The notes beneath the pieces are model-generated. The model was not told the origin of the DNA. It made no database searches and worked only from the letters and a program-made list of their open reading frames with translations. DNA of 64,000 bases from Candidatus Zixiibacteriota bacterium (GTDB lineage Bacteria; Zixibacteria; MSB-5A5; GN15; FEB-12), in contig CP070674.1 of the NCBI GenBank assembly GCA_020351995.1, positions 2,118,667 to 2,182,666 on the forward strand, in the 5' to 3' direction. Positions 3,369-63,122 of the stretch are shown in pieces. A program made the position numbers and the translations under genes. The number at the start of each line of letters is the position of its first letter. The stretch's first letter is position 1.

Positions 3369-5318
3369 ATGTTCACAAAGCTGCCTAGAGCGCCATTAGC
3401 TGATTCCTGTGCCATTGTCGCACTGTGGATCACCTCCATACTTCTTTTTCCAGGCTGTTCCGGTCATGACGCTTCAACTACTTCTTCATCTCTCCCTGAA
3501 CTGGTTGTTCGGCCAATGACTATGCTGGATACTGCCACCGAGGATGACCCTTTCGGCGAACACAAACTGGTTTTTGTTGACGCCGTTCCATACGCGACAA
3601 TTGACTTCTCCTTCGGCTGTAACAATCCCTGGATGACCCTTTCCAATTATGACGGCACCAATCGTGGCGTCACGAGTGATAGTTTTGCCGTTACGTTTTC
3701 ACCGACCGATCTTCCGGTCGGAGTTCATTACGGTACGATTACCGTTAGATCGGATGAAGCGGCCAACTCGCCTCTGATCATAAACGTTGAGTATACAATT
3801 GAGCCACGATTACCCGAACTTATTGTCAATCCGACCTTACTGGCTTTTTCGGCATCCACCAGCGAGGACATTTTGCCTCCAGACACCTTTATCGTTATCT
3901 GTGGTAATGACTCGAGTGCTGAATATTCTCTTAGCGAACCGGCCGAATGGATAGAACTGACGGGTTTCTCAGGGACCATGCCGGATACCATTATCGTAGG
4001 TGTTTTCCCGGCGATGGCTTCCACCGGAGAAAATGTCGACACGATTTGGGTGAGTTCGGAAAATACGCTTAAATCTCCCCAGATGGTTGTGATCAACCTT
4101 ACGATTCGATTACCCGATCTTATTGTGTCTCCGAACAATCTGATATTCTCAGCATACTCGCACGAGGAAACAGTACCTCCTGACACTTTTGTTGTGACCT
4201 GTAGCAACAATTCGAATGCTGACTATTCTCTTAGTGTACCTGCCGACTGGATAGAACTAACCGGTTTCTCAGGGACCATGCCGGACACTATTGTCGTAAG
4301 TGTTGACCCGGCGATGGTCTCGGCCAGCAAGAACATTGATACCATATGGATTAGTGCCGTAAATACGCTCGAATCTCCTCAGCCGGTTGAGGTCAGCCTT
4401 CTGATTCCGTCGTGGTTTGTGTCGCAAGTATCTCCGTATCCTCATCCTGTTAATGATGTGAAGTTCGTTGACGCCTACACCGGATGGGCCGGAGGATGTG
4501 TCGTGGCCACTACCCAGCGGGATGGTTTTATCCTCGGAACGAATGACGGGGGAGAAACATGGGAAGTCCGGCATTGTATTTGGTCCAGCGATCTTGGAGA
4601 GTTTTTTGGTATTTCTTCTATCGAAATCGCAGGTCAGACTGTATGGGCGGTCGGGGAAAGTGGCATAATCCGCTGCGGTCAGAATTATGGCCTCGACTGG
4701 GAATCAAGATCGACCGGTCTTGCCGACACCGTTGTGACGCTGGCAGATATTGAATTCGTTAACGAACAGATCGGCTGGATAGTTGGCGAGGGGGGAGTGA
4801 TTCTCAAGACTACCGACGGTGGTGATACCTGGCAAGAGCAGACCAGCGGAACGGCAGCGAACCTGTACTCGGTGTCCTTCGTCGATGAATCAAACGGCTG
4901 GGCCGCCGGTTCCTCTCACGTCATCCTGCGTACGAACGATGGTGGTGAAACATGGACCTTGCTGACGAGTGAACTCACCAGCCATCGAAGTGTTTACTTT
5001 ACGGATGCCAACAATGGTTGGGTTGTTACCACGGGGGGAGAGATTGCGCATACTTCTGACGGCGGGAACATATGGACCCCTCAGCAGTCCAATGTCTCGG
5101 GTTGGCTTAATTCAATATTCTTCATAAACAATTCGATTGGATGGGTAGCCGGCCAGGACGGTATACTTCTGTACACCGACGATGCCGGCTTAACCTGGAA
5201 CAGGCAGGTCATTAACACTGACGAGTGGCTGTATACCGTATACTTCATCGATGATTCAACAGGCTGGTGTGCGGGCGGCGGTGGCGTGATATTTCGCACA
5301 ACATCCGGAGGAAATTGA
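3369..5318 (+). CDS. Lipoprotein with BACON-like repeats and a YCF48-type propeller
   Basis: 649 residues. The N-terminus is a lipoprotein signal with a LFPGC lipobox near residue 30. Residues ~45-340 form three immunoglobulin-like (BACON-type) repeats; the second and third are nearly identical around EWIELTGFSGTMPDT and DWIELTGFSGTMPDT. Residues ~345-649 hold six or so YCF48/BNR-like blades, recognisable by TTDGGDTW, TNDGGETW and GWAAG/GWVAG motifs. It is probably a surface or periplasmic binding protein; no enzyme motif is visible. A good ribosome site (CCAGGAGG) precedes the ATG. A paralogue of the same architecture follows at 5780, so the pair arose by tandem duplication. Confidence 0.85.
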   Translation: MFTKLPRAPLADSCAIVALWITSILLFPGCSGHDASTTSSSLPELVVRPMTMLDTATEDDPFGEHKLVFVDAVPYATIDFSFGCNNPWMTLSNYDGTNRGVTSDSFAVTFSPTDLPVGVHYGTITVRSDEAANSPLIINVEYTIEPRLPELIVNPTLLAFSASTSEDILPPDTFIVICGNDSSAEYSLSEPAEWIELTGFSGTMPDTIIVGVFPAMASTGENVDTIWVSSENTLKSPQMVVINLTIRLPDLIVSPNNLIFSAYSHEETVPPDTFVVTCSNNSNADYSLSVPADWIELTGFSGTMPDTIVVSVDPAMVSASKNIDTIWISAVNTLESPQPVEVSLLIPSWFVSQVSPYPHPVNDVKFVDAYTGWAGGCVVATTQRDGFILGTNDGGETWEVRHCIWSSDLGEFFGISSIEIAGQTVWAVGESGIIRCGQNYGLDWESRSTGLADTVVTLADIEFVNEQIGWIVGEGGVILKTTDGGDTWQEQTSGTAANLYSVSFVDESNGWAAGSSHVILRTNDGGETWTLLTSELTSHRSVYFTDANNGWVVTTGGEIAHTSDGGNIWTPQQSNVSGWLNSIFFINNSIGWVAGQDGILLYTDDAGLTWNRQVINTDEWLYTVYFIDDSTGWCAGGGGVIFRTTSGGN

Positions 5319-5779
5319 CCACGCAGGCAAAAGGCAAGCCCGCGAATTCAACTGACATTGATTCTCAACGGTTTTGATCCAGCGCATAGGATCGCTCCAT
5401 GGTGAGCGGTTTCATTGTTTGCGCTGGATAAAAGTACACCGCCATCGCAAAGACGGTAATTGAAATGACAGGATGGCCACTACGCCCGGATATACAAGCG
5501 GTTACAGCGAGAAGACAAGATACGTTGACCTGGTATGGCGCGAACGCCCCCGAAGTCGTTACCCGACCAGGCGGCTCCTCTTATCCGCAACTTAAATTAT
5601 AATCTAGCGTATCATATAGCATATTTGAACAGGTGTGACTCAAATTCGTCTTGCAATATGTGCCCTAAGCCACAAATTAGGGGTAAAAGAGTCCGCTTTA
5701 TGCAGTGCACGTCGTTCCTCATAATAACAATTGAGAATTCCGACCGTATCGGCTTTCTTGGATACAGGAGGTCCAGGGT
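5319..5779. other. 461-base gap between the paralogous lipoprotein genes
   Basis: No convincing gene. It contains a perfect 10-base inverted repeat (ATCCAGCGCA at 5377-5386 and TGCGCTGGAT at 5420-5429) with a smaller nested hairpin in its loop; no U-run follows on either strand. A TATAAT lies at 5598-5603 but lacks a matching -35. A ribosome site (CAGGAGG) precedes the next start. The region may hold a promoter for the second lipoprotein that I cannot identify. Confidence 0.5.
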
Positions 5780-7420
5780 ATGTTCGCCAAACCGCTAAGT
5801 TCACGTTTGTTGTGTTTATTCGGTCTTATCGCGATCGGGTTACTTTCGGTGATCCTTATCGCGGCCTGCTCAGATGATAACCCGTCAGCGCCGACACCCG
5901 TCGAACTGCTGGTATCACCTCAGACGATTGAGGAGTCCTCGGTTGTCGGGATACCCAATCAGAATACCGTTCTGATCAGGGTTGATAGTGAACCGGTTCG
6001 CGAGAGTGCGCGCTTTACGTTCAGTTGCGACGCGTCGTGGATTGAGCTCAGCAATCTTGCCGGCACCGACTATGGCAATACCACCGACAGTTTTTCGGTC
6101 ATGTTTTCGGTGGAGGATTTACCAATTGGCAGCTATACGGATTCTGTTTGCGTGACATCGTCGCAAGCAACCAACTCACCACAGTATATCGAGGTCAATT
6201 ACGTCGTCACGCCCCAGGTACCACACTTAAGAGCCTTTCCTACCTGGCTGCACTATTATGCTGAGACCCCGGATCAGGAAATGGATGTTAGAACCATCAG
6301 GGTATATGCGACTGACGACGGACACTACGATTACACCATCGACCAGGTGGCTGATTGGATAACCATATCGGGAGTTTCAGGGATAACCCCCGATACCTTC
6401 GACATCACGGTCGATCCGTCGATCATCATCACCGGCGCGCATGTGGATACCCTGTGGGTGCACGCCAACGGTTTAAGCGACTCACCCCAGTCAGTGGCCT
6501 GCAGTCTGTATATCCATCCATGGCAGCTTCAGACCTCGCTGTATGAAAACTGGATACTGTACGATATGGATTTCGCCGATGATCTACACGGATGGGCGGT
6601 CGGTCTGATAATGGACGATGAAAACTGGTCAGGGTTCATTGTGAAGACATCAGATGGAGAGCAATGGGAGGACATGCTGTTAACGCCGGCATTTGAAGAT
6701 CAGAGATATGGATTATCTGCCCTTGAGATAGTCGATGACGAGATGTGGATTGTTGGACAAAGCGGGATAATCCGCTATACCCAGAATTGGGGAGAAACCT
6801 GGGACTCCAAATCTACAGGGCTCATTGATACCGTTGTTGACCTGCAAGACATCGAGCTGGTCACCAATCAGATAGGCTGGATTGTAGGAGAGGATGGTCT
6901 GATTCTTAAGACAACCGACGGTGGTGATACCTGGACGCCCCAGAACAGCGGAGCCATCAATGTCCTTAGAGCGTGTAGCTTCGTGGACGAAAACACCGGT
7001 TGGGCAGTTGGTGATGCTATGACTGCATTGCGGACGACTGACGGGGGCGAAAACTGGGTGACAATGACCGGGCCATTCTGGGATAGTCGTGACGTTTTCT
7101 TTATTGATGCCAGTACCGGTTGGATTGTCGGCCACGGAGGCAATGTGTCATTCACTGATGACGGCGGCGTAAGCTGGACAGAGCAGACCACTGATTTCAG
7201 CGGCTGGCTGTACACGGTCTTCTTCTATGATCAATCTATCGGTTGGGCCGCCGGTGAAAGTGGCGCGGTTCTATACACGGACGATGGAGGAACCACATGG
7301 ACGCAGCAAACTACGGGTACCGTCAACACCATCTATTCAGTGGAATTCCGGGATCAGTTGCGGGGCAGGATCGCCGGGCAGCGTGGCGAGATCCGTTACA
7401 CAAACTCAGGTGGAAACTAG
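5780..7420 (+). CDS. Lipoprotein with BACON-like and YCF48-type repeats (paralogue)
   Basis: 546 residues, paralogous to the protein at 3369 but with one fewer BACON-like repeat. The signal peptide ends in a lipobox IAAC near residue 30. Two BACON-like domains (about 38-250) are followed by a beta-propeller of YCF48/BNR blades with TTDGGDTW, TTDGGENW and TDDGGTTW. A paired motif (SGIIRYTQNWGETWDS here, SGIIRCGQNYGLDWES in the paralogue) shows the common origin. It is likely exported and lipid-anchored; function is unknown. A strong ribosome site (CAGGAGG) and a downstream terminator mark it as its own transcription unit or the last gene of one. Confidence 0.85.
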   Translation: MFAKPLSSRLLCLFGLIAIGLLSVILIAACSDDNPSAPTPVELLVSPQTIEESSVVGIPNQNTVLIRVDSEPVRESARFTFSCDASWIELSNLAGTDYGNTTDSFSVMFSVEDLPIGSYTDSVCVTSSQATNSPQYIEVNYVVTPQVPHLRAFPTWLHYYAETPDQEMDVRTIRVYATDDGHYDYTIDQVADWITISGVSGITPDTFDITVDPSIIITGAHVDTLWVHANGLSDSPQSVACSLYIHPWQLQTSLYENWILYDMDFADDLHGWAVGLIMDDENWSGFIVKTSDGEQWEDMLLTPAFEDQRYGLSALEIVDDEMWIVGQSGIIRYTQNWGETWDSKSTGLIDTVVDLQDIELVTNQIGWIVGEDGLILKTTDGGDTWTPQNSGAINVLRACSFVDENTGWAVGDAMTALRTTDGGENWVTMTGPFWDSRDVFFIDASTGWIVGHGGNVSFTDDGGVSWTEQTTDFSGWLYTVFFYDQSIGWAAGESGAVLYTDDGGTTWTQQTTGTVNTIYSVEFRDQLRGRIAGQRGEIRYTNSGGN

Positions 7421-54212: not shown

Positions 54213-55298
54213 ATGAGCGCAAGAGTACTGGTAGCCATGTCCGGCGGAGTCGATTCCTCGGTAACCGCCCTCCTGCTAAAAGAGCTCGGTTACGAGATTG
54301 TCGGCGCTCACATGAAGCTCTGGGATTTCGTCGATGTGGGCGGAGACATCCATAAAGATGGCCGATGCTGTACTGTTGATTCAATCAACGATTGCCGGAT
54401 GGTCTGTGACTCCATCGGCGCCCCGTTCTATGTCCTCAACATGTCTCAGCAGTTCAAGGAAAAAGTCATTAATGACTTTGTGGCTGAGTACCGGGCAGGG
54501 CGTACACCTAACCCATGTATCAGGTGCAATTCCGAGATAAAATGGGACGCCTTTCTTCGCAAAGCTGAAGAAGTCGGCTGCGACTATATCGCCACCGGTC
54601 ACTACGCGATTATCGAGCAGGGCGACGGCGACCGTTACTTTATCCGCAAAGGCGCAGATAAGACCCGGGATCAGTCCTACGTTCTGTGGGGAATCTCACA
54701 GGAGGCCCTGTCAAAAACTATAATGCCGCTGGGGGCGATGCTTAAGTCTGAAGTCCGGGGGCTGGCCCGGAAATTCAATCTCCGCACGGCGGAGAAGACC
54801 GAATCGCGTGAGATCTGCTTCGTCGCCGATGATGATTATCACCGCTTTTTGGTCGAATACGAGGCCAAGGAAGGTCGTACCTATGAACCGGGAGATATCG
54901 TTCATGAGGACGGCACTGTGCTGGGTCAGCACAAGGGGACACCGTTCTACACCATCGGCCAACGGCGGGGGCTGGGAGTGGCCTATCCGACCCCTTTGTA
55001 TGTGCAGCGAATCGATGTTGAGAACAATCGCGTTATTGTAGGTGATGATAGCTCCTTGTACACCGATGAGCTCCGAGCGGAGAACGTAAACTGGGTCAGT
55101 ATAGAACCGCCCGACGACCCTGTAAACGTTGACATCAAGATTCGCTATCAGCACGAGGCCGCACCGGCCACCCTGACGGCCTTGACGGAGGACAGGGTAC
55201 ATGCTGTATTCGACCAGAAGCAGCGCGCTATCACACCGGGCCAGTCGGCGGTCTTCTACGACGGTAATCTTCTTCTTGGCGGCGGCGTGATCGCATAG
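54213..55298 (+). CDS. mnmA: tRNA-uridine 2-sulfurtransferase
   Basis: 361 residues, full length. It has the PP-loop MSGGVDSSVTALLL, the catalytic cysteines in TPNPCIRCN and REICFVADDDY, and the C-terminal beta-barrel ending GQSAVFYDGNLLLGGGVIA. It makes s2U34 in tRNAs for Lys, Glu and Gln, using sulfur from the desulfurase encoded just upstream. Confidence 0.97.
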   Translation: MSARVLVAMSGGVDSSVTALLLKELGYEIVGAHMKLWDFVDVGGDIHKDGRCCTVDSINDCRMVCDSIGAPFYVLNMSQQFKEKVINDFVAEYRAGRTPNPCIRCNSEIKWDAFLRKAEEVGCDYIATGHYAIIEQGDGDRYFIRKGADKTRDQSYVLWGISQEALSKTIMPLGAMLKSEVRGLARKFNLRTAEKTESREICFVADDDYHRFLVEYEAKEGRTYEPGDIVHEDGTVLGQHKGTPFYTIGQRRGLGVAYPTPLYVQRIDVENNRVIVGDDSSLYTDELRAENVNWVSIEPPDDPVNVDIKIRYQHEAAPATLTALTEDRVHAVFDQKQRAITPGQSAVFYDGNLLLGGGVIA

Positions 55299-55333
55299 TG
55301 AGGTCTGCGACCCGATACCCCTTACTAATCCCC

Positions 55334-55361
55334 TTGACAACAGCCCATAAAACGGTATCTT
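55334..55361 (+). promoter_or_regulatory. Candidate promoter of the radical SAM peptide locus
   Basis: A perfect -35 TTGACA (55334-55339) with TATCTT (55356-55361) after 16 bases; TATAAA also lies slightly downstream. It is about 85 bases before the start of the first maturase gene and separates it from mnmA. Confidence 0.5.
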
Positions 55362-55445
55362 TATAAAATAGAGCTCTAAGGACCGCATCGTTGCGCAAAC
55401 AACACTAACTTCACTGTACAAAAATCCTCATACGAAAGATGCCAG

Positions 55446-56774
55446 GTGCAAGCCTCTCGCTTTAATAAAACCGTCGATCTTGAAAACGGCAGTAAGCTTC
55501 TCTTTAACGCCACCACCGGTGCCATTGCCGAACTGCCGCCGGATATGTACTCGCCGATACGCAGGCTGATAGAATTACCCGATTCAGCCCAGACGGCCGA
55601 AGACAAAGAGCAAGTCGATCACTTACACTACGGTGGCTTTCTCGTTGAAAAAGAACCCGGCGAATTGACCCAGCTTAAGGTCGAATACGGAGACCAGCGC
55701 TTTGGCGGCTCCATTTTCACCCTGGGCATCGTCCCGACCCTAGAGTGTAACCTTGCCTGTTCTTACTGCGCCGGCCGAAAAAACCCGGGCCGCATGACCC
55801 GTCATGTGGAGAAAGCCTTGCTCCAATGGGCCGCCCGGTACATCAGGAAGGCCGACGAAACCCGGATAACCTGGTACGGGGGAGAGCCGCTTCTTTGTGT
55901 TGATACGATTGAACGTATCCAACAGGGCTTTGCCGAAATGGCAAGCGGATATAAGGCAACCCTGGCGGGCAGTACTATTCTCACCAATGGATACCTTTTA
56001 AGTGGTGATATGGCTCGTCGTCTGAAATCCGCCGGGGTAATGTCGGCTCAGGTAACACTTGACGGCTCACTGGAGAAACACGACTCCTGTCGCCCGGATT
56101 CAGACGGTAAACCTACTTTTGACAGAATTATTGACAACATTTGCGAAGCCGCCAAAGATCTTGACGTTGTCGTTCGCGTAAACGTCCATGACGGTGATAT
56201 GACCACCGCCAGAGAGGCCGTGGAGATGCTTGATCAGAAGGATATCCTCTCAAAAGTCGGGTTCTATTTTGGGGAAGCCACCGGGGGATGCGAGGTCTGC
56301 TCGGATGTTACCGGTCGATGCCGCCTGAGTGAGTCGCATGCTCAGGCGCAACTGGCGATATACCGGGCGCTTGCCAGTAACACTAACTGCCGCATGGACT
56401 TCCCGTATCTGACCCCGGGTTCACGATGCGGGTCAACCCGGTCCAATTCGTTTCAGGTGGCCCCGTCCGGCTATCTATTCAAGTGTCAGCATCAAGTCTC
56501 CCCCAGGGTAGACAGTTCGGTGGGAAGTATCTTCTCCGATCAGGTTGAGGACTTCCAGCAATCCAACCAATGGGTTTTTGCCCGCCACGACCCGCTCGGC
56601 AGCTCCAAGTGTCTTGAGTGCGATATACTGCCGGTTTGTATGGGAGGCTGTCCTCGCGAGGCGAAGAAAGAACACAACGAAATCCAATATAAATGCAGTC
56701 CACTGAAAGACATCATGGGAGAGCTTCTTGTACTTAGATACCTTTACGAAGTAGGAGAGGAGGTGACCAGTTGA
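55446..56774 (+). CDS. Radical SAM/SPASM peptide maturase A
   Basis: 442 residues from a GTG. An N-terminal segment (about 1-90) containing NATTGAIAELPPDMY resembles the leader-binding region found on many peptide maturases. The radical SAM cluster site is CNLACSYC (C101, C105, C108), with WYGGEP near 144. The C-terminal SPASM domain has the full seven-cysteine pattern: C328-x13-G-x4-C347, then CLECDILPVCMGGC (C389-C402) and C417. Three further cysteines lie at 282, 285 and 292. Such enzymes install carbon-sulfur, carbon-carbon or ether crosslinks in ribosomal peptides. Its stop codon overlaps the start of the first peptide gene. Confidence 0.9.
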   Translation: MQASRFNKTVDLENGSKLLFNATTGAIAELPPDMYSPIRRLIELPDSAQTAEDKEQVDHLHYGGFLVEKEPGELTQLKVEYGDQRFGGSIFTLGIVPTLECNLACSYCAGRKNPGRMTRHVEKALLQWAARYIRKADETRITWYGGEPLLCVDTIERIQQGFAEMASGYKATLAGSTILTNGYLLSGDMARRLKSAGVMSAQVTLDGSLEKHDSCRPDSDGKPTFDRIIDNICEAAKDLDVVVRVNVHDGDMTTAREAVEMLDQKDILSKVGFYFGEATGGCEVCSDVTGRCRLSESHAQAQLAIYRALASNTNCRMDFPYLTPGSRCGSTRSNSFQVAPSGYLFKCQHQVSPRVDSSVGSIFSDQVEDFQQSNQWVFARHDPLGSSKCLECDILPVCMGGCPREAKKEHNEIQYKCSPLKDIMGELLVLRYLYEVGEEVTS

Positions 56775-56887
56775 TCTTTATCGTTCATCCGACGCGCTCG
56801 GCGCAGAAACCGTGTGGGCTGAAATTGGGACCGTGCCCGAAGAAGGCAATATCCATTCTTCCGCCGATGTACATGGCTTCCCCGTAA
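56771..56887 (+). CDS. Candidate RiPP precursor peptide 1 (38 aa)
   Basis: Starts with TTG overlapping the maturase A stop (TTGA), 7 bases after GAGAGGAGG. The product begins MIFIVHPTRSAQ, has cysteines at 15 and 22 (KPCGLKLGPCPKK) and ends ISILPPMYMASP. It is a close paralogue of peptide 2: in the first 11 codons they differ at five codons, four synonymously and one Ile/Val. That shows selection on the protein. The maturase next to it is the likely modifying enzyme. The family is not recognised. Confidence 0.75.
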   Translation: MIFIVHPTRSAQKPCGLKLGPCPKKAISILPPMYMASP

Positions 56888-56904
56888 TTCGGGCGCGCCT
56901 GTTA

Positions 56905-56946
56905 GTCTGGAATCAATGCTCTTAATATAATAGGCAAATTCCAGAC
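56905..56946 (+). other. Hairpin after peptide 1 gene
   Basis: GTCTGGAAT pairs perfectly with ATTCCAGAC over a 24-base loop, starting 17 bases after the peptide 1 stop. The same stem recurs after peptide 2 with base changes that keep pairing. Confidence 0.6.
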
Positions 56947-57002
56947 ACATGGAGTTATGCTGTGCTCGCAGTACCTTTTAAAATCTGAGAGGAGGTGACC
57001 AG

Positions 57003-57137
57003 TTGATCTTTGTCGTTCACCCGACTCGTTCGGCCTCCGGCGACTGCAGTCAAGTAGGACCGTGTTCGCCGAAGTACCGTCCGTGCAGGACGAAGGCGAT
57101 TTATATTCTGCCGCCGATGTATATAGGTCCGCAGTAA
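57003..57137 (+). CDS. Candidate RiPP precursor peptide 2 (44 aa)
   Basis: TTG start after GAGAGGAGGTGA. The product begins MIFVVHPTRSAS, has cysteines at 15, 21 and 28 (GPCSPKYRPC) and ends AIYILPPMYIGPQ. It sits exactly 232 bases downstream of peptide 1 as the second copy of a duplicated unit. Compared with peptide 1, the two ends are conserved and the middle is lengthened by six residues, the pattern expected for a leader, a variable core and a conserved tail. Confidence 0.75.
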   Translation: MIFVVHPTRSASGDCSQVGPCSPKYRPCRTKAIYILPPMYIGPQ

Positions 57138-57154
57138 TTCAGGTGTACCCGTCA

Positions 57155-57194
57155 GTTTGGGATCAATGTTCGGACAAATAGGCAAATTCCAGAC
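57155..57194 (+). other. Hairpin after peptide 2 gene
   Basis: GTTTGGGAT pairs with ATTCCAGAC using two G-U pairs at the positions that differ from the first copy (57155-57163 with 57186-57194). Confidence 0.6.
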
Positions 57195-57250
57195 GCATGG
57201 AGTTTTGCTGTGTTCGCAGTACCTTTTAGCATCTGAGAGGAGGTGAATCC

Positions 57251-57388
57251 GTGAAATTCATCGTACCGCCCACCAAGGGAGGCAACGGGCCGAAATGCCC
57301 GCCGAAGACAAACCCCTGCGAAGTTGTCTGTTCGACTTTTTGCACCACATTATGCAAGATATTCTTCCCTATTATCCCGCCGTGGTAA
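57251..57388 (+). CDS. Candidate RiPP precursor peptide 3 (45 aa)
   Basis: GTG start after GAGAGGAGGTGA. The product begins MKFIVPPTKGGNGP and has cysteines at 16, 23, 27, 31 and 35, the last four as CEVVCSTFCTTLC (CxxxCxxxCxxxC). It ends KIFFPIIPPW. Its first ten codons differ from those of peptide 5 at five positions, all synonymous. The evenly spaced cysteine ladder resembles cores modified by radical SAM thioether-forming enzymes, such as SCIFF peptides, though the leader is unrelated to those. Confidence 0.78.
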   Translation: MKFIVPPTKGGNGPKCPPKTNPCEVVCSTFCTTLCKIFFPIIPPW

Positions 57389-57420
57389 TAGTCTGAAGTA
57401 TTTCTCTGGGAGTTTGCGTG

Positions 57421-57464
57421 GGAGACGTTGGCGCACCGAAAAACCGGCGTCTCCTGATTCTTTT
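57421..57464 (+). terminator. Terminator-like hairpin after peptide 3
   Basis: GGAGACG and CGTCTCC (57421-57427 with 57448-57454), followed by TGATTCTTTT. Similar hairpins follow peptides 4 and 5. Confidence 0.65.
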
Positions 57465-57491
57465 ACGGCCTCCGGATCGTGCATAATCATC

Positions 57492-57520
57492 TTGACCTTG
57501 AAGGCTTGTGGCAATATGTT
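57492..57520 (+). promoter_or_regulatory. Candidate promoter for peptide 4
   Basis: TTGACC (57492-57497) and TATGTT (57515-57520) with the ideal 17-base spacing, after the peptide 3 hairpin. Confidence 0.55.
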
Positions 57521-57723
57521 AACAATGATATATCGTCCGCGGCGAGGTATATCAGAAAACTAATGCGGCATCCTGGCGTCAATCATTGAACCCTCACAGC
57601 ATTAACGATGACATTTGACTTCCGGATATTGTGCTGAGATTGCCCCGAGTTTTATCGGGGTCATCTCGACAATGGCTCGATACTCTATTTGACTCGCAGT
57701 CGGCGAGAGGAGGCACCTGAACG

Positions 57724-57861
57724 CTGTTTATCGTACCGCCCGTTTTTTCGGGGAAAAAGGGACCATGTCCGGATAAAGTCTGGCCGTGCGGAATCCTGTG
57801 CGCGACCTTTTGCAGTGATAACTGCAAGGTGGTGTTTGTAATCATCCCGCCCAAGCCATAA
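57724..57861 (+). CDS. Candidate RiPP precursor peptide 4 (45 aa, unusual start)
   Basis: From a CTG at 57724 (or ACG at 57721); the frame is closed by TGA just upstream, so no ATG, GTG or TTG can serve. GAGAGGAGG lies 10 bases before the CTG. The product is MFIVPPVFSGKKGPCP, then PCGILCATFCSDNCK and a hydrophobic end VVFVIIPPKP. Cysteines at 15, 22, 26, 30 and 34 have exactly the spacing of peptide 3. Either a rare start codon is used or this copy has lost its start and is silent. Confidence 0.6.
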   Translation: MFIVPPVFSGKKGPCPDKVWPCGILCATFCSDNCKVVFVIIPPKP

Positions 57862-57885
57862 ATCAGGTAGACCTTGGTATTGAGT

Positions 57886-57929
57886 GAGAGGCGCATATCC
57901 GAAGTGGAATCTGCGTCTCCCTTGTTTTT
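57886..57929 (+). terminator. Terminator-like hairpin after peptide 4
   Basis: GAGA and CGCA pair with TGCG and TCTC around a bulge and an inner TCC/GGA stem, followed by CCCTTGTTTTTG. Confidence 0.6.
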
Positions 57930-57963
57930 GCCCGTTGACCAATTTTGCGTCGACATATCGAAC

Positions 57964-57992
57964 TTGACGAAAATCGAATCCAACCGTATTAT
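57964..57992 (+). promoter_or_regulatory. Candidate promoter for peptide 5
   Basis: TTGACG (57964-57969) and TATTAT (57987-57992), each one base from consensus, with the ideal 17-base spacing. Confidence 0.65.
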
Positions 57993-58166
57993 TATTGTTA
58001 AAGCACGCTCATTTTGTGAGCGCGCTCATGTGAGTGTAGAACCTGACGGTTTCATGTCTGAAACTTCCGGGACCCGTATATTAGTCCGAAATGCGTGCGT
58101 ATAGCATGATCTAAAGAAACCGCTAAACCTTTATCCGCGAGACAACAGACGAGAGGAGGTGAACCT

Positions 58167-58265
58167 GTGAAGTTTATCGTTCCACCCACCAAGGGCAAGA
58201 ACAAACCGTGCCCGACTTTTTGCCCGCGCTTGATTTACTTGATTAAATCCCCGGTTCTGCCGTAA
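58167..58265 (+). CDS. Candidate RiPP precursor peptide 5 (32 aa)
   Basis: GTG start after GAGAGGAGGTGA. The product begins MKFIVPPTKGKNK, has cysteines at 15 and 19 (PCPTFCPR) and ends YLIKSPVLP. It is the shortest member and keeps a single CxxxC step with the TFC tripeptide seen in peptides 3 and 4. The codons of its first block differ from those of peptide 3 only synonymously. It has its own promoter and a strong 3' hairpin and lies just before maturase B. Confidence 0.75.
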   Translation: MKFIVPPTKGKNKPCPTFCPRLIYLIKSPVLP

Positions 58266-58290
58266 TTGTAAGTAACGCAAAGTGTCTTAA

Positions 58291-58329
58291 GGGAGACGCG
58301 GCTATATCGACCCGGCTGCGTTTCCCTTC
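58291..58329 (+). terminator. Terminator-like hairpin after peptide 5
   Basis: GGGAGACGCGGCT pairs with GGCTGCGTTTCCC over 13 positions, including three G-U pairs. The following U-run is short (TTCT), so read-through into maturase B is likely. Confidence 0.6.
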
Positions 58330-58359
58330 TGAAAAATAGTGCAGTATTAAGATCGACCT

Positions 58360-59382
58360 ATGGAGCAACAAGACCAAGCCCGTTCTGCGGGTTGGGGAAT
58401 AACCCGCCGATGTAACCTGTCCTGTCCGCACTGCTATAGTGCCGCCTGGAAATCTTCCAAGGACGAGCTCTCCACCGACGAATGTCGTCAGGTCATAGAC
58501 ACCATGCCTGAGTTGGGGGTGGACACAATCGGGTGGACGGGTGGCGAGCCGCTTATCCGCAAAGATCTCGAGGAGCTCATTACTTATGCGCATTCGCTCG
58601 GTATCGATTCGGGTATAACCACTAACGGCATCCTGCTAACCCAAAAGCGAGTAGATAGTATCGCCAAAGCCGGCGTAAACTCTTTCCAGATTAGTCTCGA
58701 CGGTTCTACTGCGGAGCGAAATCGCGACATCCGCGGCGCCCGGCTGAAAGATTTCGAAATTATCATCAATGGCATTAAGATGTCACTTCAGGCCGGGCTG
58801 CCGGTCTATATGGCAATGATTGTCGGGCTGGCGACTCTGGATGATGTCCTTCCATATATCGATTTGGCGCGCGAGCTGGGCGTTACGTCGGTCAGGTTCT
58901 GTGGCTTCGTGCCGCACGGCAGCGCTACCGACGAAGCGGTCAGGAAGCGGCTGGACTACTCGGATCAACCGGAGAAACTCGCCGAGCTGGTTGACCAGCT
59001 TCTGGATATTGAGTCGCCCAAGCTCATTCTCGACCCTGCCCATGGTCCTCTGCCACCGTCCTACGAATTCCACAAGTGCATTGCCGGTGTTGGAACTTTC
59101 TATATATCTGACAACGGCAATGTCTATCCATGCACCGGGTTGCTGGGTGAGCGGTTCCTGGTTGACAATGTCCGAAACCGCCCGCTGCCGGAAATCATCA
59201 GAGATCCCAAGATGACTGAAATGGTTTCGTACGACCGCAATAACATCCACGGCCATTGCCGCGAATGTCCTTATTTCCGCGTTTGTCGGGGGGCCTGTCG
59301 CGGCGCCGTCTATGCCCACACCGGCGACCTCGACGCTTCCTTCCCGGTATGTCTTTTCAGAGCTTCGCAGAATCTTCCCTGA
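58360..59382 (+). CDS. Radical SAM/SPASM peptide maturase B
   Basis: 340 residues. The radical SAM site CNLSCPHCY (C18, C22, C25) lies at the very N-terminus, followed by GWTGGEPL and ISLDGST. The C-terminal SPASM set is complete: CIAGVGTFYISDNGNVYPC, then CRECPYFRVCRGAC and a last cysteine in FPVC. It is of the PqqE/AhbD/NirJ type in architecture. Unlike maturase A it has no N-terminal extension for leader binding. Its place immediately after the five peptide genes suggests a second modification step on them, though a separate role (for example heme or cofactor synthesis) is possible. Confidence 0.88.
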   Translation: MEQQDQARSAGWGITRRCNLSCPHCYSAAWKSSKDELSTDECRQVIDTMPELGVDTIGWTGGEPLIRKDLEELITYAHSLGIDSGITTNGILLTQKRVDSIAKAGVNSFQISLDGSTAERNRDIRGARLKDFEIIINGIKMSLQAGLPVYMAMIVGLATLDDVLPYIDLARELGVTSVRFCGFVPHGSATDEAVRKRLDYSDQPEKLAELVDQLLDIESPKLILDPAHGPLPPSYEFHKCIAGVGTFYISDNGNVYPCTGLLGERFLVDNVRNRPLPEIIRDPKMTEMVSYDRNNIHGHCRECPYFRVCRGACRGAVYAHTGDLDASFPVCLFRASQNLP

Positions 59383-59415
59383 AAGCCGATCGACAGCTGA
59401 CATCCAAAAATATCG

Positions 59416-59446
59416 TTGACCTTGGCCATTTGCGCCTCAATATTGT
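59416..59446 (+). promoter_or_regulatory. Candidate promoter of the UPF0173 gene
   Basis: TTGACC (59416-59421) and TATTGT (59441-59446) or overlapping AATATT, spaced 17-19 bases, about 40 bases upstream of the start. Confidence 0.35.
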
Positions 59447-59485
59447 ATTTTGCTGCGTCAATAACAAAAATCAAGGAGTGAAAAT

Positions 59486-60163
59486 ATGCCGGAAGTCAAA
59501 TTTCTAGGTCATTCCTGTGTGACAATCACGGAAGGAGCGCACAAGCTCGTCATTGATCCGTTTATTTCTGACAATCCCAAAGCGCCCGTCAAGGCGGATG
59601 ATATCGATGCCAATTATGTGCTGCTTACCCACGGCCACGGAGATCACGTTGGCGACGCGATCACGATCGCCAAGCGCAACAAGGCCACGGTCATCGCCAA
59701 TTTCGAACTCGCCAGTCTTTGCGCCAGCCAGGGAGTCGACATACATCCCCTGCACATCGGAGGTTCACATAAGTTTGATTTTGGCCGGGTAAAGCTTACC
59801 ATTGCTCATCACGGCGGTGGATACGGCCCTGATGCGTCCCGATATACCGGCCCAGCCTGTGGTTTCCTCGTGACTATCGGTGGCGTTACCGTTTATCATT
59901 CCGGTGATACCGGCCTGTTTTATGATATGAAGCTGATCGGCGAAATGAACCGCATCGACCTGGCCTTTCTGCCTATCGGTGACAACTTCACTATGGGGGT
60001 TGATGACGCCGTCAAGGCCGTCGAATTTCTTAAACCTGCCAAGGTGGTGCCCATCCACTACGACACCTGGGATATCATTGCCGAAGACCCCAAGCGATTT
60101 GCCGAAAAGGTATCGGGGTCCGAGGTCGTCGTTCTCCAACCTGGCCAGGGTCTCAAGCTTTAG
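59486..60163 (+). CDS. UPF0173 metal-dependent hydrolase
   Basis: 225 residues of the metallo-beta-lactamase fold, UlaG-like branch. Metal ligands are visible in FLGHSCV, LLTHGHGDHVGD, IAHHGGGYG, YHSGDTG and VPIHYDTW. The natural substrate of this widespread family is not known. The ribosome site AAGGAG is good, and a strong terminator follows. It lies next to the peptide locus but appears to have its own promoter, so a link is only positional. Confidence 0.93.
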   Translation: MPEVKFLGHSCVTITEGAHKLVIDPFISDNPKAPVKADDIDANYVLLTHGHGDHVGDAITIAKRNKATVIANFELASLCASQGVDIHPLHIGGSHKFDFGRVKLTIAHHGGGYGPDASRYTGPACGFLVTIGGVTVYHSGDTGLFYDMKLIGEMNRIDLAFLPIGDNFTMGVDDAVKAVEFLKPAKVVPIHYDTWDIIAEDPKRFAEKVSGSEVVVLQPGQGLKL

Positions 60164-60186
60164 TCCATACCAATCAAGAGCTTCGT

Positions 60187-60218
60187 CAGAAAGGGGCCCG
60201 TGCCCCTTTCTGATTTTA
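60187..60218 (+). terminator. Intrinsic terminator of the UPF0173 gene
   Basis: A perfect 11-base stem, CAGAAAGGGGC and GCCCCTTTCTG, with loop CCGT, followed by ATTTTAAT. Confidence 0.88.
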
Positions 60219-60284
60219 ATTGCTTCCCGATAGTTTTCATGCTAACATTTCAATCTAACCTGACACGAAGGACTATAAGAGTAT

Positions 60285-63122
60285 ATGAGAAGGGCCGTGA
60301 AAGTAATCGGCTGGGTAGCCGGCATAATTATTGGAGTCTTGATCCTTGCCATTATTGGCCTGTGGTTGTTTTTCCCCGTCGAAAAAGCTAAAGACATGGC
60401 TGTCGAGAAGGGTAGCGCACAACTCGGACGAACCATCACGGTGGAGAGCGCGGACATCTCGTTCTGGGGCGGTCTCGGAGTTAAACTCGGCAATGTGACT
60501 GTCGGCAATCCGCCTGAAATGGCGGAGGGGCAACTGTTGACGGCGGAGAATGTCGATGTCAAACTGCGAATACTCCCGTTGTTGACAGGCAACTATAAGA
60601 TCGACCGACTTGTAATCAATCACCCCGAAATATCAATGGTCAAACGTCGTGACGGCGTGAACAACTTTACCTTCAAGACACTCGAGAAAAAAGCGCCTCC
60701 GGAACTTGCCGAAAAAGCCGCGCCCGAGGCTAAAGCTGCGGCGGTTGCGGTAACATTCGATAAGCTCGTGATCAATCACGGTTCATTGACATATGTCGAT
60801 GACAGTTCCGGGGTCAGCTTTGGTCTGAACGATCTGGACCTGTCCACGTCGCTGACGAGTCCGCGTAAGAACCTTTACAGGTCTTCGGGAGAGATCTCCA
60901 TCGCGTCCGCTGTATTGCCTGCTGACTTGCCGTTGCCCCCGCTTTCTCTCAAGCTCAACTATCACGCGGACTATGACTTTGATGCCAAGCTTATCACTTT
61001 CGATGAAACGGAGTTGGAACTAAGTAAACTCAAGTTCGATCTCAAGGGTGATGTCTCAGACCCTACCGGCCAGCTCAAAAGCAAAATGACTGTCAAATCC
61101 GCAAAGATCTCAGTGGGGGATTTTCTTTCTCTGCTTCCACCTGAAAAGCTCGAGGCCACCAGGGACATTACCATTACCGGTGACTTCGCTCTTGATCTCG
61201 ACCTCGAATATGACCCGAACAACATCGATACTCTGACATACTATGGTACGGCTGTGGTTACGGGGATGAATCTGACTCACAGGGAAGTCTCCGGCGAATT
61301 CAAATTCAAGCGGGCCCTCATAGACTTCAAGAATAACAATCTTCGCTTCAACATCGAGGAAGGATACTTTGACAGCAAACCGGTCAAAGGACATCTGGTT
61401 GTAGACAATTTCTCCGATCCCACTGTTAACGGGGAATTGGCCGGTACGCTGAATCTTGCCTACCTGCAGCCGTTTCTCCCGGCCGAGGGTGGTCACCAGG
61501 TCGCCGGTGAAAGCCAGTTCGATCTGAAGCTATCCGGGAAAACCAACGACTTCGCGGCTATGAATTTCTCCGGAAGCGTGAAGGTGGCTGGGGGTAAATA
61601 CAGTTCGGCCCTGCTGTTTGAACCGGTGGAATCATTTGACCTCGATGTTTATTTCGATAACCGGCTCACTCATGTCAAAAAGCTGACCGGGCGAATGAAG
61701 TCGGGAAACCTTGCTTTCGAGGGCCGACTCAACGATCTTGTTCCGTACTTTTTGGCCGACTCTGTCACCCGTCCTGTCATACATCCCACTATTGATGGCG
61801 AGATCTCCGGCAAGGTTGACCTGGCTATAGCCAATGGCTTTTTGCCGCCGAAAGGTGATCCGGAGTTGAACGGCCAGTTGGAAACCCGGATAAAACTGAC
61901 CGGGGTGCTGACTCAATATGACAAGCTTAAGCCAGGTGGCACACTCTCTATTCGGCAAGCGTCGTACACGGACTCTCTTTTGCCTGAACCGGTGACGCAT
62001 TTCGAAGCCGATATGGTCATCAGCCCGGACACGATTACCATCAGTAATATGACGGCGCGGTTTGTTTCCAGCGATGCCACGTTTTCGGGCAAATTGGCCA
62101 ATCCGTTCCCATATTTGCTTCCGGTTGAAGGTGTGGATCGTACCGAAGTCAAAAAGCCCATTTTCCTGTTCAAACTGTCATCTCATCGATTCGACACGGA
62201 CAAAATGTTCCCCGAAGCGGTGCCGGGCTCGGGTGAGAATCGTGCCACTATGTCGCTCGATTCGGTGTCGACGTTTATCCTTCCCGACATTGACGGCCTG
62301 GGGACCTTTGAGGCCGATACGATTATATACAGCGGCGTGGAGTTAACCTCTATTCAGGGAAAAATAAAAATTCACGACCGGAAAATAGAGTGCTACGACG
62401 CCATTGGCAAAGTCTATACAGGTGATGTTGCCGGGAACACGACTATTGATCTTAACGATTTTGCCCAACCCCGTTATTCCGGCGAGTTCAAAGCCTCAAA
62501 TGTCGAAGCTAACGATTTCATAAGCCGTTTCACAAGGTTCGGGGGGATGGTGTTCGGTAAGGTCAATCTGGAAGGAGACTATGCCGCCAGGGGTTGGGAA
62601 CCAACAGATTTCATCAAGTCTCTCAACATGAACTCGGCGTATACCCAGCTCGAGGGCAAGCTCGTCACCTCCGGGGTGGTGTATTCCTTACTGAACGAGT
62701 TGGCCGAACAGGCCGGCCAGTCTTTTAATAACGAGCAGGCGCTAAAAGACCTCAAGACAAATATTCTGGTCAAAGATGGCCGGGTGGGGCTTGACAAGCT
62801 CAAGACAAAATTGGGGAAAGTGGGTGATGTTGAACTCGGCGGCTTCTACGGCCTGCTTTCAAATGAGATCGACTTCAGCGGGACTATTCTTCTATCGGAG
62901 GAGTGGACACAAAAACTATTCTCGCAAAAGGGCCTGCTCAGCGGTCTGGCCGGGCTTCTCACTGACAAAAGCGTCAATCGTGTCAAGCTCCCGATTGCGT
63001 TCGGAGGAACACCCAACAAGCCCGAATTCAAGATCGACTACGATGCCCTGACCGAGAGTCTGGGCGATGACCTTAAGAAGGATGCCGGAGACCTGCTGAA
63101 AAATCTCTTTAAGAAGAAATGA
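60285..63122 (+). CDS. AsmA-family protein
   Basis: 945 residues. One N-terminal membrane helix (about 6-30) is followed by the AsmA N-terminal motif (ITVESADISFWGGLGVKLGNVTVGNPP, here split as IT-VESADISFWGG and LGVKLGNVTVGNP) and a long series of beta strands forming a groove. The C-terminal ~120 residues contain the AsmA_2-like conserved segment with LLNELAEQAGQ and GVGDVELGGFYGLLSNEIDFSG-like strands. Such proteins move phospholipid between the membranes or limit outer-membrane protein assembly. With tamB at 47392 it is the second AsmA-like protein in the window. Confidence 0.88.
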   Translation: MRRAVKVIGWVAGIIIGVLILAIIGLWLFFPVEKAKDMAVEKGSAQLGRTITVESADISFWGGLGVKLGNVTVGNPPEMAEGQLLTAENVDVKLRILPLLTGNYKIDRLVINHPEISMVKRRDGVNNFTFKTLEKKAPPELAEKAAPEAKAAAVAVTFDKLVINHGSLTYVDDSSGVSFGLNDLDLSTSLTSPRKNLYRSSGEISIASAVLPADLPLPPLSLKLNYHADYDFDAKLITFDETELELSKLKFDLKGDVSDPTGQLKSKMTVKSAKISVGDFLSLLPPEKLEATRDITITGDFALDLDLEYDPNNIDTLTYYGTAVVTGMNLTHREVSGEFKFKRALIDFKNNNLRFNIEEGYFDSKPVKGHLVVDNFSDPTVNGELAGTLNLAYLQPFLPAEGGHQVAGESQFDLKLSGKTNDFAAMNFSGSVKVAGGKYSSALLFEPVESFDLDVYFDNRLTHVKKLTGRMKSGNLAFEGRLNDLVPYFLADSVTRPVIHPTIDGEISGKVDLAIANGFLPPKGDPELNGQLETRIKLTGVLTQYDKLKPGGTLSIRQASYTDSLLPEPVTHFEADMVISPDTITISNMTARFVSSDATFSGKLANPFPYLLPVEGVDRTEVKKPIFLFKLSSHRFDTDKMFPEAVPGSGENRATMSLDSVSTFILPDIDGLGTFEADTIIYSGVELTSIQGKIKIHDRKIECYDAIGKVYTGDVAGNTTIDLNDFAQPRYSGEFKASNVEANDFISRFTRFGGMVFGKVNLEGDYAARGWEPTDFIKSLNMNSAYTQLEGKLVTSGVVYSLLNELAEQAGQSFNNEQALKDLKTNILVKDGRVGLDKLKTKLGKVGDVELGGFYGLLSNEIDFSGTILLSEEWTQKLFSQKGLLSGLAGLLTDKSVNRVKLPIAFGGTPNKPEFKIDYDALTESLGDDLKKDAGDLLKNLFKKK

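Follow-up and report, generated by a model that had tools for sequence, protein, structure and literature searches.

The window considered here is a stretch of 64,000 nucleotides within a single 3.6-Mb contig (CP070674.1), whose host belongs to the uncultured phylum Zixibacteria. At positions 55446-59382 it contains a locus of the type that produces ribosomally synthesized and post-translationally modified peptides (RiPPs), in which two radical S-adenosylmethionine (SAM) enzymes with SPASM domains, called A and B below, have five short peptide genes containing cysteine and proline (P1-P5) between them. That these two enzymes act on the peptides is almost certain. The reading favoured here, to which a probability of roughly two in three may be assigned, is that the locus is a cassette for RiPP biosynthesis that belongs to the Clo7bot-like superfamily, includes a second, obligate SPASM enzyme and operates by the mechanism proposed below. 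Its new elements are the obligate SPASM enzyme B, a peptide tail of the form F.ILPPW, a minimal precursor of 27-28 residues, and a parallel system designated type 2. Neither the enzymes nor the peptides reach the cut-off of any named family against which they were tested, and the cassette is a distinct and apparently undescribed branch within the Clo7bot-like SPASM peptides rather than Clo7bot itself.

Recurrence of the enzyme pair and its peptides

The cassette of the window (type 1) was searched for with A in 61 related genomes and 132 genomes of the phylum, and with B in the 61 genomes. Within the 61 genomes, type 1 enzymes were marked at E below 1e-79 for A (A1) and below 1e-70 for B (B1); the total of 21 loci pools the matches from these genomes, from the phylum-wide search and from further contigs. 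Nearly all of the 21 A1-B1 loci lie in Zixibacteria, one (L059) being in a metagenome-assembled genome labelled Acidobacteria. At 19 of the 21, A and B have homologues of P1-P5 between them or next to them, the two loci without peptides being contigs of about 3 kb, and at most loci the precursors sit between the two enzyme genes. An earlier note on this DNA had proposed a RiPP locus, and this recurrence of homologous peptides beside the same enzyme pair bears the proposal out.

A1 and B1 occur in the same 14 of the 61 genomes (Fisher's exact test, 7e-13, uncorrected for relatedness), and B1 was found without A1 only in G049, where it lies at the end of a contig. The evolutionary distances between A enzymes correlate both with those between B enzymes (r 0.72) and with those between precursors (r 0.57), with 0 of 5000 permutations in each case. 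This co-occurrence and co-evolution support the suggestion of the earlier note that one pair of enzymes would make the whole peptide set.

The peptides of the window have 32-46 residues, 2-5 cysteines and the leader block M[IK]F[IV]V[HP]P. The window has four instances of the combination of GGAGG, a start codon, 24-60 codons and the leader pattern, compared to a mean of 0.005 and a maximum of 1 in 200 dinucleotide shuffles. The precursor genes are under purifying selection; between those of L038 and L039 there are 12 synonymous changes and no nonsynonymous ones. Neither Pfam nor NCBIfam matches any of P1-P5, so the match to an unrelated peptide family which the earlier note had named as evidence against its own proposal was not seen. 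The precursor-profile search suggested in that note was carried out over the 61 genomes with 18 precursors; it matched P1 in its own genome at 2.7e-11, matched the A-B loci, and added five peptides in G046 and G049 (MRFIEKRQDNKLNACPYYCKKMFYILPPW and kin). P1-P5 are real conserved genes which travel with A and B.

The five added precursors are on contigs that carry neither A nor B, both assemblies being fragmented. Tandem type 1 precursors stand away from the enzymes at L190 (G049:C53) and L191 (G046:C73), and those of L190 adjoin a gene resembling an Fe-S oxidoreductase. Such lone precursors reflect either action in trans or breaks in the assembly.

The commonest type 1 precursor is a minimal form of 27-28 residues, exemplified by MKFIEKPKTAQAKPCPCYNRLFYILPPNPVK, MRIIETARQAQSKPCPCYKMLFLILPPW and the 27-mer MRIVQKSKETRKPCPCYKIMFYILPPW, and the precursor set of the window is an expanded and diversified version of this form. 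The small variable peptide set expected in the earlier note is found in the window's genus, whose loci have 5, 2 and 1 precursors with 2-5 cysteines. In an A1 subclade (L044, L048 and L172) a YIIC..xGPL.IIC core (IIC..IIC for short) replaces the PCPC..ILPP arrangement, as in MKLIRLPNDLMVKRPHYIICKVNGPLKIICGVW.

Families and predicted structures of the enzymes

The reading frames and cysteine positions confirm that two radical SAM proteins with complete SPASM sets surround the five tiny genes, as the earlier note had stated. The CX3CX2C motif is formed by C101/C105/C108 in A and by C18/C22/C25 in B, and the full SPASM sets are C328, C347, C389, C392, C398, C402 and C417 in A and C240, C258, C300, C303, C309, C313 and C331 in B; alignments show that the cluster and SPASM cysteines of both are kept across homologues. 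These patterns, together with the adjoining short precursor genes, place the locus among radical SAM/SPASM RiPP maturase systems in the broad sense.

The best NCBIfam model for A is, by a hair, TIGR04463 (222 bits, against a cut-off of 525), beside the Clo7bot maturase TIGR04334 (220 bits, cut-off 600), PapB NF047865 (108 bits, cut-off 340) and the SCIFF maturase TIGR03974 (61 bits, cut-off 425). The AlphaFold2 (AF2) model of A has a mean predicted local distance difference test score (pLDDT) of 87.5, and its N-terminus has a b3a3 arrangement of strands at residues 7-11, 17-21 and 26-30 followed by helices at 32-43, 51-62 and 73-86. The best full-length structural match of the model is CteB (5WHY/5WGG, Z 25; 17-18% identity), and among the close structural matches only CteB and TigE (8VPO) cover the whole length of A including the N-terminus, the alignments starting at residue 4 for CteB and at residue 1 for TigE. 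Since the Pfam PqqD model finds no match in A, the assignment of a RiPP recognition element (RRE) rests on this structure model, from which A is a predicted RRE-bearing maturase and the locus a predicted RRE-dependent RiPP system. The leader of CteB binds its RRE as a beta strand, and an open site in one of the SPASM clusters is able to meet a substrate cysteine (PMC8326336). By analogy, the seven-cysteine SPASM set of A would fit a CteB-like open cluster site, and ranthipeptide or sactipeptide chemistry is plausible for A from its modelled fold.

Enzyme B matches the Pfam SPASM model PF13186, and remains below the cut-offs of AhbD TIGR04545 (178 bits, cut-off 500), StsB (143 bits, cut-off 625), MftC (139 bits, cut-off 265) and PqqE (133 bits, cut-off 381). 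These scores suggest a position between the AhbD-, NirJ2-, PqqE- and MftC-like families, on a different SPASM branch from A. The nearest structures to its AF2 model are SkfB, SuiB and PqqE.

The leader block and the C-terminal tail

The leader M[IK]F[IV]V[HP]P is the leader block of the Clo7bot-like superfamily, M[KE][YFM][IV][VI][EK]P, a superfamily which to our knowledge has been named but is chemically uncharacterised. A-like enzymes of Firmicutes, Spirochaetota and other groups adjoin MKYIVEPSHRFAEGFCFGCREQC, MKMIVEPIEFDTRSATCSYTC, MKFVVNPTHVEELAFC and similar peptides, and the peptides at L096 are Clo7bot according to NCBIfam (42.6 and 31.0 bits, cut-off 31). At loci with A only, the leader pattern M[KE][YFM][IV][VI].P occurs in 11 of 36 peptides near A, compared to 3 of 78 elsewhere (p 1.6e-4). 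The view expressed in the earlier note that this leader is unlike any known precursor family therefore has to be given up, since the block belongs to Clo7bot-like precursors of Firmicutes and other phyla, and its presence beside an A-type enzyme places the cassette in the wider superfamily. The Clo7bot precursor model TIGR04333 (cut-off 31 bits) matches none of P1-P5 at E <= 1; it is silent across the 61 relatives, yet equally silent in control genomes. The Zixibacterial peptide MRYIVKPQEPAPKSCPWYCTRFFPILPPYVDEF (L055, MRYIVKPQEP...) aligns with positions 1-9 of the model at 9.4 bits (E 0.91), which is weak by itself.

At loci with A and B, a tail of the ILPP or PLYG type ends 55 of 71 peptides. 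At the A-only Clo7bot-like loci, which have no neighbouring B, it ends none of the 11 leader-bearing peptides. The F.ILPPW-type tail is thus found only where B is present, and the link to B is suggestive.

The type 2 cassette consists of precursors of the form M[IV][YF]LIDP...C...PLYG[IV].P followed by the SPASM enzymes A2 and B2, and many type 2 loci add a B12-binding radical SAM protein and an ATP-binding cassette (ABC) exporter. The window's own genome contains one such locus (L049, G000:C1:2708000-2721000), with A2, B2, an ABC exporter and the precursors MMVYLIDPRDLIKGGNGCKKKGC...PLYGVPPPPQ and MMVFLIDPGNLKGKKC...PLYGIPPI. The cobalamin-binding protein (B12-binding and Radical_SAM domains) follows A2-B2 at eight loci (L052:7714-9225 and seven more) and may be a third tailoring enzyme. 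A quick tree built from 110 A-like proteins separates A1 (22 rows) from A2 (23 rows) as clades with support of 100 and 99, respectively, and with different neighbours, A2 being closer to the Firmicute Clo7bot-like enzymes. Because the best profiles also differ for the second enzymes (AhbD for B1, nif11_3 and GDL maturases for B2), the sequences suggest that a second SPASM enzyme may have been recruited twice. Type 2, as judged by A2-like enzymes, is present in about 36 of the 132 phylum genomes and in 17 of the 18 genomes with type 1 (hypergeometric 1.2e-10, uncorrected for relatedness), and one reading of this association is that type 1 borrows the exporter of type 2.

A third Zixibacterial class was observed at L193 (G040:C124:4000-12000, minus strand, 4291-5902 of the reversed locus), where six precursors in tandem, among them MEFITNPFLLSEDVTLSVGEPAGVCGINLGCCCLALTGS, accompany an A-like enzyme (27-31%) and share a conserved end, GCCC..LTGS.

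Organization of the locus

Features of the cassette in the window
Feature	Position	Strand	Start and remarks
Enzyme A: RRE-like domain (about residues 1-86), radical SAM, SPASM	55446..56774	+	GTG, 442 aa
Precursor P1 MIFIVHPTRSAQKPCGLKLGPCPKKAISILPPMYMASP	56771..56887	+	TTG; overlaps stop codon of A
97-nt direct repeat, 81% identity	56929-57025 and 57177-57273	+	5' region, Shine-Dalgarno and start of P2/P3
Precursor P2 MIFVVHPTRSASGDCSQVGPCSPKYRPCRTKAIYILPPMYIGPQ	57003..57137	+	TTG
Precursor P3 MKFIVPPTKGGNGPKCPPKTNPCEVVCSTFCTTLCKIFFPIIPPW	57251..57388	+	GTG
Precursor P4 (M)LFIVPPVFSGKKGPCPDKVWPCGILCATFCSDNCKVVFVIIPPKP	57721..57861	+	ACG only, 46 aa
Precursor P5 MKFIVPPTKGKNKPCPTFCPRLIYLIKSPVLP	58167..58265	+	GTG
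Enzyme B: second radical SAM/SPASM protein, without RRE domain	58360..59382	+	ATG, 340 aa

A Shine-Dalgarno sequence GGAGG precedes all five peptide genes at equal distance. The earlier count of five short genes stands for the four with TTG or GTG starts; P4 has no ATG, GTG or TTG and is open from ACG only, at a codon which falls exactly in the register of its sisters after the Shine-Dalgarno sequence, so that it represents either a rare start codon, a sequence error, or a decayed or dying gene. A repeat search found a 48-nt unit common to P1 and P2 (92% identity), and this unit and the direct repeat listed above indicate that the array grew by tandem duplication.

The genes next to A and B differ outside three genomes of the same genus. 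The upstream cysteine desulfurase and MnmA and the downstream UPF0173-type hydrolase were considered as parts of the system and rejected, since they flank A-B only in these three genomes. The MnmA query found no match in the same-genus genome G003, which is not usable as an empty-site comparison. There are no Rfam elements at E <= 1 within 55000-60300, and promoter and terminator scans gave signal near the shuffle level. Elsewhere in the window, at 3369-5318 and 5780-7420, are tandem paralogous secreted proteins with a repeated T-x-D-G-G-x-T-W motif, YCF48-like by eye and unrelated to the cassette.

Proposed mechanism and alternatives

In the proposed mechanism, the first seven or so residues of the precursor (M[IK]F[IV]V.P) would dock as a beta strand on the RRE-like domain of A. 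A, as a SPASM enzyme of the CteB/PapB type, would then abstract hydrogen atoms and link cysteine sulfurs in the variable PC..C middle part to residues close by, which would give thioethers of the ranthipeptide or sactipeptide type. B would act on the same peptides; since its presence goes with the hydrophobic tail (F.ILPPW and variants), it may either introduce a second modification at the tail or complete the reaction of A as a partner subunit, in the manner of TrnD. Export of the product would probably depend on a transporter gene at another locus, for which the type 2 cassette of this genome is one candidate. In the window's genus, the precursor genes multiplied and their cores diversified. 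A more specific division of labour, in which an RRE-bearing SPASM enzyme crosslinks the cysteine core and an RRE-less SPASM enzyme of the AhbD/MftC/PqqE type introduces a radical modification of another kind into the tail (ILPPW or PLYGIPP), the arrangement having arisen twice in the phylum, is put forward tentatively, as an idea with the odds somewhat against it.

Several observations weigh against the favoured reading. The chemistry is read from genes and models, A misses every named maturase family cut-off, and the model of B is weaker than that of A (pLDDT 74.6, built on 12 sequences). Some type 1 precursors hold a single cysteine (L036, MKMIEKPKDKTKDPKICIKLLFLILPPW), and these, together with the IIC..IIC cores described above, imply that cysteine thioethers may be neither the only modification nor one common to all. 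Because the tail pattern was derived from the A+B loci themselves, and these loci are related by descent, its link to B is suggestive only. Type 1 loci have no conserved exporter or peptidase; ABC matches at L034 and L035 were examined as a cassette exporter and rejected because they resemble amino-acid import ATPases.

The alternatives differ mainly in the role given to B. Because there is a precedent in thuricin CD, whose two radical SAM enzymes form a tight complex in which the TrnD radical SAM cluster is dispensable (PMC12093266), the possibility that B is a non-catalytic or supporting partner of A, with the tail only as a binding site, is a live rival, if an unlikely one. The strict pairing and co-evolution of A and B would be expected of such a complex, but B lacks an RRE and is on another SPASM branch than A, and in alignments of B the CX3CX2C cysteines are invariant and the SPASM cysteines invariant or nearly so. 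This conservation points to catalysis without deciding the matter, since TrnD has likewise retained its cluster. It is improbable that B serves an unrelated reaction while A does all of the modification in an ordinary Clo7bot-like cassette. The common leader block, and the Clo7bot-like cassettes of other phyla in which A has no B nearby, would fit this picture, but genomes without A1 also lack B1, bar the one with the contig break, despite differing gene neighbourhoods, and the precursors mostly lie between the two genes.

Equally improbable is a route in which A and B convert the ends of the peptides into a small redox cofactor or tag, like pyrroloquinoline quinone or mycofactocin. B does score with the MftC, PqqE, AhbD and NirJ profiles, and type 1 loci lack a conserved exporter, but five divergent cores with 2-5 cysteines at one locus are unfit for a single cofactor, A is of the cysteine-peptide maturase type, and outside close relatives the type 1 loci have no other gene family in common. 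That the peptides are chance open reading frames or regulatory leader peptides, as their shortness and their TTG, GTG or even ACG starts might suggest, is already contradicted by the homologues at 19 loci, purifying selection and a rate of occurrence far above that of shuffles, and may be given almost no weight.

On the favoured reading of a two-enzyme RiPP cassette, the locus offers a defined enzyme pair with unusually small natural substrates (27-28 residues including leader and tail), a ready-made series of core variants occurring in nature, and a conserved tail for which B is the one evident partner; together these make the role of the second SPASM enzyme in a two-SPASM RiPP system directly testable. 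The uncultured phylum Zixibacteria carries two or more such systems, and no paper on Zixibacterial RiPPs was found in the literature searched. The Clo7bot leader block reaches well beyond Firmicutes.

Comparison with known systems

No paper on TIGR04463 or Clo7bot was found in the literature searched. TIGR04463 (rSAM_vs_C_rich) gives the top NCBIfam score of A, which is less than half of its cut-off. Clo7bot (TIGR04333/TIGR04334) shares the leader MK[YF]IVKP and the tandem short cysteine-containing precursors, and its maturase profile aligns with A over positions 2-435 of 440 and reaches 360 bits with A2; the Zixibacterial cassette differs in always having a second SPASM enzyme, in the F.ILPPW tail and in having fewer cysteines. 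CteB (SCIFF) and PapB (freyrasin) have the RRE, radical SAM and SPASM architecture of A, but their precursors are alike only in shortness and cysteine content, and the present cassette is known from its genes. The type 2 cassette resembles type 1 in its LIDP-type leader, cysteine core, conserved tail and two SPASM enzymes, and differs in that A2 forms its own clade, B2 is nif11_3/GDL-like, and a B12-binding radical SAM protein and an ABC exporter are often present. In thuricin CD, as here, two different radical SAM proteins (TrnC and TrnD) serve several short cysteine-containing precursors (PMC12093266); the differences are that B has no RRE-type N-terminal domain, that the precursors are unlike, and that the association of A with B is seen here as co-occurrence.

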